A stretch of DNA of 64,000 nucleotides from Methanobacteriota archaeon. Its GTDB lineage: Archaea; Halobacteriota; Methanomicrobia; Methanomicrobiales; Methanospirillaceae. The position numbers and the translations under genes are program-made. The stretch spans positions 1-64,000 of the forward strand of contig JAKPPB010000020.1 of the NCBI GenBank assembly GCA_029547605.1. Reading direction: 5' to 3'. Shown piece after piece: positions 53,220-56,061 of this stretch (the first letter of the stretch is position 1; each line of letters starts with the position of its first letter). Below the pieces are notes generated by a model. The model made no database searches. It was not told the origin of the DNA and saw only the letters and a program-made list of their open reading frames with translations.

Positions 53220-53747
53220 ATGCCAGAGGGTTCTCCTCTGCCGCAGACGATACAGGCAGAGGAAGATGCACGGAGGCGGAAGGTCAGGGGTCTAATAAAG
53301 CTCCTCCAGAGCAAATACCTTGATGAACGGTGGAAGGCAGCGGAGGCCCTCGAAGGCGTCGGGGACGCGACTGCAGTGCAGCCCCTGATCGATGCGTTGG
53401 ACGACCCCTTCGTGGACGTCTCCTGGATCGCGGCAAAGACACTCGGCCAGATTGGTAACGGGCGGGCATACGAACCGCTTCAAAAGGCACTCACGTCGGA
53501 AGAGAAGTGGCTTCGGATCGGCGCGGCGATCGGCCTCGGGAGGCTCGGTGACCGCCGGGCAGTCCCCGCGCTTATTGGGACAATGAAGGATCGGGATGCC
53601 CTGGTCAGGAAGCACGCGGCATGGGCACTTGGCAGGCTTGGGGACAGATCTGCACTGGAGGTGCTCAGGGAAGCAACCAAAGACCCGGACAGGAGGGTAA
53701 GAGAATCGGCAGAAGAAGCACTCGCTCGGCTTGAAGCCGCGGCCTGA
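53220..53747 (+). CDS. HEAT-repeat (PBS lyase-like) protein
   Basis: The 175-aa protein is made of about five HEAT repeats of 30 residues, e.g. RWKAAEALEGVGDATAVQPL, VSWIAAKTLGQIGNGRAYEP, LRIGAAIGLGRLGDRRAVPA and VRKHAAWALGRLGDRSALEV. Such alpha-solenoids bind other proteins or regulate; no enzyme motif is present. RBS GGTGGTGGG precedes ATG 53220. It precedes the membrane-anchored resolvase-like gene by 91 bp on the same strand. Confidence 0.88.
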   Translation: MPEGSPLPQTIQAEEDARRRKVRGLIKLLQSKYLDERWKAAEALEGVGDATAVQPLIDALDDPFVDVSWIAAKTLGQIGNGRAYEPLQKALTSEEKWLRIGAAIGLGRLGDRRAVPALIGTMKDRDALVRKHAAWALGRLGDRSALEVLREATKDPDRRVRESAEEALARLEAAA

Positions 53748-53838
53748 TTTGCGTCTTTTTGGTTGTCGCGGCACCCGGTTGCACTATTTCACCCTGCACG
53801 CGGAGTATTTTTCCCCATTTTGCCACAGAGTACTGGAT

Positions 53839-54330
53839 ATGATCGAATGGGTCCTCCTCCTGCTCGTCATTGGGACAATCCTCCTCGCATGGAGGTACCT
53901 TGCACTTCGCATGACCGTTGAACGGAGAGCCGCCAGCCTCTTCGAGGAGTGGCGATCACAGAGGATGGAAGACGAGGTGAGGGAGAGGGCAGGACTCCTT
54001 CACCGCGAGTGGACTCTCCAGGAAGAGGCCCGCGTCCGCCGCGATGCCATCGAGATGAGCGGGGCAGTCATCAGGGGAAAGGTGACGGAGCACCTGACTC
54101 CCTACTTTCCAGGGTTCTCTTACGACCCGCGCGATGCAAGGTTCCTCGGGACACCAGTCGACCTCATCGTGTTCGAGGGGCTCTCTGCCGGGTCCCTCGA
54201 ACACATCACGTTCCTCAAGGTAAAGACCGGGAAGACCGGTGCGCTCTCGCAGAGGGAGAGACAGGTCAGGGAGTGCGTTGAAAGGGGCCTCGTGCGGTAT
54301 GAGGTGCTGCACCTGCGGAAAGATTCATGA
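53839..54330 (+). CDS. Membrane-anchored Holliday-junction-resolvase-like protein
   Basis: The 163-aa protein has an N-terminal membrane helix (MIEWVLLLLVIGTILLAWRY), a charged linker and a C-terminal domain like the Endonuc_Holl family: VIRGKVTEHLTPYFPGFSYD, FLGTPVDLIVFEG and FLKVKTGKTGALSQRERQVR. The D and the K of the PD-(D/E)xK core are visible, but the position usually filled by Glu in FxEVKTG reads Lys (FLKVKTG). It may be catalytically altered. It converges with the KaiC-like gene with a 6-bp stop overlap. Function in membrane-proximal DNA processing is inference. Confidence 0.72.
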   Translation: MIEWVLLLLVIGTILLAWRYLALRMTVERRAASLFEEWRSQRMEDEVRERAGLLHREWTLQEEARVRRDAIEMSGAVIRGKVTEHLTPYFPGFSYDPRDARFLGTPVDLIVFEGLSAGSLEHITFLKVKTGKTGALSQRERQVRECVERGLVRYEVLHLRKDS

Positions 54331-54924
54331 TGGTCCCGCGCCCGATCTGACCTTCTTCGCTTCTTCGGCCCGGGGTGACAGGTCCATATCGATTGTTCCG
54401 TCGACGTAGGTTGTCAGCTGGGTGAGGAGGAGCGGGTCGAGCCCCTTCTCAACGGCAAGGAATATCCCAGATGCGTCGACAAGCCTGAGCTTGCTCGTGA
54501 TGAAGTGGATGAACTTCGAGATATTCGTGGAGGGGATGTAGATCAGCAGGGTGCTGATTGAATCAAAGAGCAGGCAGGCCTTCTGCCCAGAGAGAGTATT
54601 TAACACTTCAGTGATCGCGATGCCAAGGTCTGTCAGGTTGGAGGGGCTGCTGATGAACCGGCAGTCCTCCTGTCCTTCGGGGACCCGTCCCATCGCGTAC
54701 TTGGTGATGGTGTCGATGAACGAGACACGCCCCATATCGATCCCTTCTGCGGCGTAAAGCTTCTTCAATACGGCAGACGGGTGGTTTGAGGTGATCACGA
54801 CGACCCGGTGTCCCTGGCCGGTCAGGGAGCGAATGATGGAGATGTTGTTCTGTTTCAGCCTCTCTGCCGAGGATAAGACCAGGAACAGTCGGTTCTGCCC
54901 GATTCCCGTGAGGTCGATCGACAT
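54325..54924 (-). CDS. KaiC/RAD55-like protein without Walker A lysine
   Basis: The 199-aa protein follows a RecA/KaiC core: first strand and loop read LFLVLSSAERLKQNNISIIR, where a GxxGxGKT P-loop would be; the Walker B strand KACLLFDSISTLLIYI is kept, and VDGTIDMDLSP is like the KaiC C-terminal strands. ATP hydrolysis is unlikely. It starts 14 bp after the stop of the membrane sensor gene (RBS AGGTGGGAG), suggesting partners in one pathway. Start ATG 54924 was preferred over a TTG upstream. Confidence 0.65.
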   Translation of the reverse strand: MSIDLTGIGQNRLFLVLSSAERLKQNNISIIRSLTGQGHRVVVITSNHPSAVLKKLYAAEGIDMGRVSFIDTITKYAMGRVPEGQEDCRFISSPSNLTDLGIAITEVLNTLSGQKACLLFDSISTLLIYIPSTNISKFIHFITSKLRLVDASGIFLAVEKGLDPLLLTQLTTYVDGTIDMDLSPRAEEAKKVRSGAGPS

Positions 54925-54938
54925 GCACTCCCACCTGT

Positions 54939-55613
54939 TCAACGAGTGAGGAAATCCCGATAGGCAAGAGGTATCTCGTCCCGCTCCTCCACGATCGCCT
55001 GGTTCAATTCCCTGAAATTGGCGATGATCTGATCTGCATGGGTGATCTGCACCGAGAGTTCCATCTTCAATGCCTCAAGGTCAGGCTTCTCGCTTTCAAG
55101 CTGCAGGCGTATGGCGGCCATGTTGTCCCGCATGAGGGTGATGGGGTTCTTCATCCGCAGCGCCACCTCTGCAAGGTATCCGACCAGCGCCGAGTGCTTC
55201 TCTTCAATCGCCTTCTTCTGGAGAAGGATCTCTGCCTTTGCACGGTCCCTCTCCTCCGATATCCTCGCTACGATCCACGTGACTACCAGAAACATCACTG
55301 CCCGAAGCAGGGTTGCCCAGGAGAAGTCGCCGACAATACCACTGGTGAGGAATGTGGCGGCGACGAGCGCCGCGGCAACGACAAGCGCTTTCTGGTAATA
55401 CCAGATCGCCGCGAGGACCAGGAGCACGTAAAATATGTGGGTATAGCCAATCGCGGTGCGAAAAAAGAGGTGCACGCCGATTTCGAGGCCGATGCAGATC
55501 GCCCCGAGAATTACGAGTATCCAGATCTGCTGATTCGCGCCAGGAGACTTTGTCCTGCGCCTGTCGCTTGATCCTCCTTCCCTTTCCAGGCTGCCACGGT
55601 TCACATTCTTCAC
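54939..55613 (-). CDS. Membrane sensor with degenerate histidine-kinase dimerisation domain
   Basis: The 224-aa protein has a basic N-terminus, four membrane helices (residues about 28-120, e.g. IWILVILGAICIGLEIGVHL and ALVVAAALVAATFLTSGIV), a coiled coil (ISEERDRAKAEILLQKKAIE) and a DHp-like helix ALRMKNPITLMRDNMAAI. In kinases this helix reads xSHELRxPLT; here the phospho-acceptor His is absent, and no ATP-binding domain follows. It may relay signals by conformation to the KaiC-like protein next door. Confidence 0.68.
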   Translation of the reverse strand: MKNVNRGSLEREGGSSDRRRTKSPGANQQIWILVILGAICIGLEIGVHLFFRTAIGYTHIFYVLLVLAAIWYYQKALVVAAALVAATFLTSGIVGDFSWATLLRAVMFLVVTWIVARISEERDRAKAEILLQKKAIEEKHSALVGYLAEVALRMKNPITLMRDNMAAIRLQLESEKPDLEALKMELSVQITHADQIIANFRELNQAIVEERDEIPLAYRDFLTR

Positions 55614-55662: not shown

Positions 55663-56061
55663 TCACCCGGCGGGTGAGGCGAGCGGGAAAATGTCATCGG
55701 CCGTGCGGACAAGGATCTCCCTCTCACCCCGGTATGTCTGTACCGTGCCATACAACGATACCTCATCGCCCGGCCGGGGCCACCCTCTCCTGACGGAACT
55801 GGAGGGGATAAAGACCCGCACACCCGAGACCACCAGGACCTGGTGACCACCGCTCGCAGTCATCGTGCTCTGTTCGACTGCCCCCTGGTGATGCACGAGC
55901 TCCCCTTCCGCGCTCCCGGGACCATAGGGGCGTGAGAAGAAGCCCTTGCCGGCCGATTCAATGACCAAAGATGCGGTGAGAACGATGACGATGACAAGGG
56001 CAAGAACAAGGACAGCAATCTTCTCCTGCCTGACCAGTATCACGGGAGAAGGGTATCTCAC
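55663..56061 (-). CDS. Membrane-anchored OB-fold protein
   Basis: The 132-aa protein has one N-terminal membrane helix (IAVLVLALVIVIVLTASLVI) and an extracytoplasmic-facing C-terminal domain with the OB-fold pattern VLVVSGVRVFIPSS, PRPGDEVSLYGTVQTYRGER and EILVRTADDIFPL. It resembles archaeal tRNA_anti-like small OB proteins. Whether it binds nucleic acid outside the cell is open. It is monocistronic, divergent from the wHTH gene. Confidence 0.68.
   Translation of the reverse strand: MRYPSPVILVRQEKIAVLVLALVIVIVLTASLVIESAGKGFFSRPYGPGSAEGELVHHQGAVEQSTMTASGGHQVLVVSGVRVFIPSSSVRRGWPRPGDEVSLYGTVQTYRGEREILVRTADDIFPLASPAG

Follow-up and report, generated by a model that had tools for sequence, protein, structure and literature searches.

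A His-less helical transmitter and a P-loop-less KaiC-like partner as a candidate signalling pair in Methanomicrobiales

Introduction

Signalling in archaea is poorly understood, and the proposal that KaiC-like proteins are its hubs draws mostly on fused domains and on genomic context. In the output of the cyanobacterial clock (KaiC-SasA/CikA), both KaiC, as an ATPase, and SasA, as a kinase, are active. Inactivated KaiC-like domains (iKaiC: DUF835, MEDS and iKaiC-REC) were reportedly proposed as archaeal signalling hubs by Makarova, Galperin and Koonin in 2017. Inactivated KaiC proteins as parts of archaeal signalling systems have already been proposed (PMC5847659, PMC6393860). Galperin et al. 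(2018) also proposed a class of non-enzymatic, histidine kinase (HK)-like proteins in Methanomicrobia and Archaeoglobi that lack the ATPase domain (PMC5847659). The MsmS-type kinases of Methanosarcina, in which the H-box is missing and ATPase activity is kept (PMC11784639), represent the opposite case to the sensors examined here.

The subject of this work is a two-gene unit, consisting of a membrane sensor and a KaiC-like partner, within a window of 64,000 nucleotides from a member of the Methanospirillaceae (contig JAKPPB010000020.1, positions 1 to 64,000). As with iKaiC, the partner has a KaiC fold without a P-loop and is linked to a receptor; it belongs to DUF7504 and has weak matches to DUF7090, DUF835 and KaiC. 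iKaiC is fused to REC, PAS or HalOD1 domains; the partner, by contrast, is short, stands alone as a separate protein and is paired almost obligately with one transmitter. In the KaiC-SasA/CikA system a KaiC-family protein similarly works with a histidine-kinase-type receptor, but the proteins are active there, whereas both activities are predicted to be lost in the sensor-partner pair. The sensor resembles the HK-like class of Galperin et al. in that a HisKA-like hairpin at the C-terminus follows the sensor domains, the ATPase domain is missing and there is a short conserved C-terminal helix. Members of that class, however, have the conserved His and are clearly HisKA (HHalign probability 96%), whereas the helical transmitter domain of the sensor, here called SC, has no His, has an invariant Arg and is paired with DUF7504. 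Haloarchaeal DUF7504 proteins belong to the same Pfam family as the partner and have likewise lost the P-loop, but genomes outside Methanomicrobiales gave no match to the SC profile. A literature search found no paper on DUF7504 and no description of the SC-DUF7504 pair; the 2017 KaiC-hub study may mention it. The part that looks new is that the two proteins are paired almost without exception, by way of a transmitter that has an invariant Arg and no His.

Results

Gene layout

The two open reading frames lie in tandem on the minus strand, at the coordinates given by the original prediction. The sensor gene (54939..55613, minus strand; 224 aa) has a GTG start and a TGA stop and encodes a four-helix transmembrane (4TM) input followed by SC. 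Immediately downstream on the same strand is the partner gene (54325..54924, minus strand; 199 aa), which runs from the ATG at 54924 to the stop at 54325 and encodes a DUF7504 protein with a KaiC fold and no P-loop. The 14-nt gap between the sensor stop and the partner ATG (54925..54938, minus strand) contains the Shine-Dalgarno-like AGGTGGGAG, and the sequence upstream of the ATG reads AGGTGGGAGTGC. Since this ATG is conserved in relatives and preceded by AGGTGGGAG, it is the likely start codon of the partner rather than the TTG at 54942, which would give 205 aa. Both genes are under purifying selection, which is stronger on the partner (dN/dS ~0.05-0.17).

Upstream, 49 nt from the sensor gene, lies a gene for a 132-aa protein that has a hydrophobic stretch near its N-terminus (55663..56061, minus strand); it is conserved beside the sensor in the 5 same-genus genomes checked. 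It adjoins the pair within the genus only, and is therefore taken as genomic context and not as a component of the module. On the other side, an Endonuc_Holl (PF10107) gene (53731-54330, plus strand) is convergent with the partner gene, with a 6-base overlap at the 3' end of the latter.

A transmitter domain without the phospho-His

The four membrane helices that had been predicted for the sensor (aa 26-120; 55254..55538, minus strand) are borne out by hydropathy peaks together with model helices at residues 26-50, 56-72, 75-94 and 99 onwards, although confidence in the model is modest (pLDDT 64). Past the 4TM domain, the same model has a long helix to residue 175, a turn, a helix at 180-210 and a short helix at 216-223. 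No HATPase_c domain is present, and the protein terminates after the hairpin; a single-sequence search of Pfam and NCBIfam with the sensor gave no match to HATPase, HisKA or any other family. A related 4TM domain is also N-terminal in genuine histidine kinases at two loci (L067 and L059, both with the H-box TRHDI; Pfam confirmed the HATPase domain of the former). A 4TM domain resembling that of the sensor heads HEAT-repeat proteins as well (L060, L068 and, in the sensor's own genome, contig 61, L098:6430-7668). The 4TM domain is therefore a mobile input module.

SC (aa 126-224; 54942..55238, minus strand) consists of a long helix, a turn, a second helix and a conserved C-terminal IPxAYRxFL helix. 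These last ~98 residues are common to all paired sensors, while the N-termini are wholly different: 4TM, a single PAS, several PAS, REC-PASn (L069) or almost nothing (133 aa in total). At L081, L082 and L086, SC is nearly bare. Because SC stands at the end of receptors with such different inputs, it is identified as a transmitter module. Matches to the SC profile are confined to Methanomicrobiales (45 genomes among 394 from the phylum, each of the 45 belonging to that order), and a PDB sequence search with the SC profile and with the partner profile returned nothing significant.

Within SC, a degenerate H-box, EVALRMKNP (aa 149-157; 55143..55169, minus strand), carries invariant Glu149, Arg153 and Pro157. 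Leu152 takes the place of the kinase His, and Arg replaces the kinase Glu. Among 75 aligned SC members, the phospho-His column holds L, M, V, I, N, K, A or R and never His (0/75), the next column is Arg in every case (75/75) and the H-box Pro is likewise invariant (75/75). The claim that the sensor lacks both the phospho-His and the ATPase domain thus extends to the family, in which no HATPase match was found. In the 4TM subgroup, unlike in the SC family as a whole, a His that precedes the H-box (residue 140) is almost invariant.

With no His at the phospho-His position and an invariant Arg beside it, the usual way of accepting phosphate is closed to SC itself. This bears on the possibility that the pair operates in a phosphorelay, in which SC would associate with genuine histidine kinases or would target response regulators in trans, the partner would modulate the process and REC-bearing sensors would receive phosphate. 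An N-terminal REC domain does occur in some paired sensors (L069), the genome that carries the window has 13 HisKA matches, and phosphatase or phosphotransfer roles have been suggested for ATPase-less HK-like proteins (Galperin et al. 2018, PMC5847659). Nevertheless, given the family-wide loss of the His and the lack of any histidine kinase or response regulator gene beside the pairs inspected, the neighbours of which are partly annotated, we consider a phosphorelay unlikely.

Is SC a relict DHp domain?

The original prediction described a DHp-like helix in the sensor. Register and hairpin topology fit that description, but homology is unproven and the statistics are weak. The HHalign alignment of SC to HisKA from methanogens spans 71 columns (E 0.007) and keeps the H-box and the two helices exactly in register; one of 300 column-shuffled controls equalled this result (1/100 and 0/200 in two runs). 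The HHalign probability, however, was only 5%, compared with 96% for the undisputed ATPase-less HisKA class from the same genomes, and just 2 of the 32 SC members searched had a Pfam HisKA match, which was weak (E 0.025). A Foldseek search with the full sensor model, which is of low confidence, returned no significant match to a histidine kinase or to anything else; matches to CpxA and ZraS were weak and insignificant.

An alternative explanation is that SC does not descend from a DHp domain. It would then be a coiled-coil domain that arose independently in this order and serves for dimerisation and docking, and the pair would still signal by contact. The low HHalign probability, the scarcity of Pfam HisKA matches and the Foldseek result all favour such an origin. 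Against it speak the alignment in register, which one of 300 shuffles equalled, the position of SC in the place of HisKA, directly after PAS and a signalling helix, the fitting hairpin topology and the weak structural matches to CpxA and ZraS. We regard an independent origin as a real possibility that nonetheless falls clearly short of even. Descent of SC from histidine-kinase DHp domains is suggestive only.

Other identities for SC were considered and rejected. MetOD2 (PF18548), or another curated REC-associated output domain, is one; neither appeared among the Pfam families with E<0.5 that were listed for REC-PAS-SC proteins, or among the 25 families, out of 54, that were listed for 32 SC members. 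DEATH-like adapter domains, which are reported with archaeal KaiC proteins, are six-helix bundles, whereas SC is modelled as a pair of long helices and a single short one. The His-bearing HK-like class of Galperin et al. shares with SC the absence of HATPase, but SC is also without the His, and its profile link to that class is weak (5 of 200 shuffles were as good).

A KaiC fold without a P-loop

The partner matches DUF7504 (PF24336) with 50.9 bits against a curated cut-off of 27 (E 3e-13), and all 26 of its relatives searched match the same family. Its match to KaiC (PF06745) reaches 14.6 bits, below the cut-off of 26.6, that to DUF7090 is also below the curated cut-off, and DUF835 matches in relatives are weak. 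A single-sequence HHalign comparison of the partner with KaiC from its own genome was uninformative. Foldseek with the partner model gave PH0284, FlaH and KaiC as the top solved structures (probability 1.00, E ~2e-6), which points to a KaiC/RecA fold.

Where the active KaiC of the same genome (L001) has the Walker A loop GTYGTGKTT, the partner reads SSAERLKQN (54847..54873, minus strand), and a GxxxxGK[ST] P-loop is found in none of 76 partner family members. A Walker-B-like strand, CLLFD (54562..54576, minus strand), is retained, with an Asp that is invariant in the partner alignment. The partner had been predicted to keep the Walker B strand and lack the P-loop, and both features were confirmed. 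It is possible that the retained KaiC fold and Walker-B-like Asp allow the partner to bind nucleotide non-canonically and act as a slow ATPase or kinase. With the P-loop missing from 76 of 76 members, and from the haloarchaeal DUF7504 proteins examined as well, we think this very unlikely. DUF7504 overall is distributed far more widely than the SC pair, especially in haloarchaea. The named matches to the partner profile are all from Methanomicrobiales, in an exact-peptide-pattern scan that would miss distant forms.

Sensor and partner genes are found together

The co-occurrence analysis suggested with the original prediction found the two families side by side, so that the condition named for refuting it, families that never co-occur, did not hold. 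Across 232 genomes belonging to the class, the list of partner matches has 150 entries, and an SC match was listed directly upstream of 117 of them, separated by 32-78 nt from match to match. Individual inspection of the remaining 33 loci raised the number of partners with an SC neighbour, typically ~40 nt away, to 145 of 150; at 2 of these 33 loci SC is downstream of the partner rather than upstream, and in L103/L104 the gene order is reversed with SC and partner still together. The five exceptions comprise one that results from an assembly gap that cuts the sensor (G045), three partners with no recognisable SC neighbour (L105, L116 and L127) and one preceded by an ORF that appears by eye to be a degenerate REC-like/SC-like gene (L126). 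Among named genomes, which overlap the 232-genome set and serve as a cross-check more than as a second sample, SC is directly upstream of 50 of 54 partners and downstream of one. Methanogenium marinum DSM 15558 and Methanocalculus taiwanensis are among the species with pairs.

About a fifth of the listed SC matches (33/150) have no listed partner. On inspection, a partner was found at three such sites (L130, L132 and L133) and, in pieces, at a fourth (L138). In other species of the sensor's own genus, a PAS-SC protein of ~205 aa has no DUF7504 neighbour at the eight loci examined (L089-L096); this stand-alone protein may share a partner or act as a decoy. Near an SC-partner pair at two further loci, a second SC receptor with a hydrophobic N-terminus and PAS is encoded on the opposite strand (L078:5118-5981 and L086:10193-11068), which suggests two receptors for one partner.

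The distance matrices of SC and partner are correlated (mirror-tree r=0.70, which partly reflects shared species history), compared with -0.001+/-0.037 and a maximum of 0.10 for shuffled pairings. One might ask if the genes are adjacent through inherited gene order alone, with no joint function. Within the genus the whole neighbourhood of the pair is indeed conserved, with the 132-aa protein gene and HTH/PLD-like genes flanking it. Outside the genus, however, none of the flanking genes of the window that were tested lies near the pair, which itself persists and stands alone, and genomes carry several paralogous SC-partner pairs. The adjacency counts and the neighbourhood comparison nearly refute inherited order as the sole explanation, and we regard it as extremely improbable. 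Near-obligate adjacency, co-divergence and a shared transmitter behind many inputs strongly support the proposal of a signalling pair.

Predicted contact between SC and partner

Sensor and partner are in the same reading frame at 19 loci. For 18 in-frame loci, SC and partner were modelled with AlphaFold2 as one chain with a short linker, the stop being read as Gly and unpaired rows being added for depth. The joined model has a pLDDT of 88 and a pTM of 0.82. From the domain sizes, we estimate that a pTM nearer 0.65 would be obtained without packing between the two; the value is thus higher than we would expect if SC and partner had no predicted packing.

Discussion

How might a receptor without a phospho-His signal through a KaiC-like protein without a P-loop? 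The explanation that we favour as a whole, with slightly better than even confidence, is that sensor and partner constitute a receptor and its dedicated partner, forming a two-protein signalling module specific to Methanomicrobiales that works by contact. The sequences show various inputs (4TM, PAS and REC-PASn) joined to one conserved C-terminal helical hairpin, SC. SC would serve as the dimerisation domain of the receptor, the role that DHp has in histidine kinases, and a change in the input domain would alter the helical register of SC. The KaiC-like partner may be held by SC, with the hairpin and the conserved C-terminal helix as the probable sites of contact, so that the signal would be a change in the binding or shape of the partner, with no phosphate transfer and no ATP hydrolysis by the pair. 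The partner could in turn act on a further protein, perhaps an active ATPase of the KaiC family or some other hub.

Signalling by allosteric contact without phosphotransfer, as originally suggested, is the simplest reading and agrees with the joined model, but it is inferred, and the REC domains of some relatives mean that phosphotransfer may act upstream. More tentatively, and with somewhat less than even confidence, we propose that a former kinase hairpin that has lost its His became a docking platform for a dead KaiC, with contact replacing phosphotransfer and with swappable membrane, PAS or REC inputs, in a system specific to Methanomicrobiales.

The two-gene unit makes the link from a receptor to a catalytically dead KaiC directly testable, in about 100 genomes that often have several paralogous pairs each, and the minimal SC-partner complex would be ~300 residues. 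If the proposal is true, the pair would show how a two-component receptor can be rewired into a phosphate-free one and would provide a handle on the role of dead KaiC proteins.

ATPase-less receptors with a HisKA-like domain and a C-terminal ESEKVREFLRKH are very abundant (L203-L232). In an ungapped comparison, the distance from their conserved His (GDHIRNPL) to the Pro is shorter by one residue than it is in ordinary kinases, and Glu, Gln or Ala replaces this His in some of these receptors. Within ~1.5 kb of 30 presumed members of the class of Galperin et al., no SC or partner-type match was found.

The original prediction suggested looking for the pair near chemotaxis or archaellum genes. 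No such link was found for the pair; only another DUF7504 paralogue is near CheR/CheW/MCP-like genes. This second DUF7504 protein of the same genome (L097:6095-7962; contig 103, 38094-39961) has 235 aa and a degenerate P-loop, and its gene overlaps one that fuses a KaiC-like N-terminus to a Ras/Arf-like GTPase. The DUF7504 and GTPase genes come after FeoA- and FeoB-like genes and are near the CheR-, CheW- and MCP-like genes.
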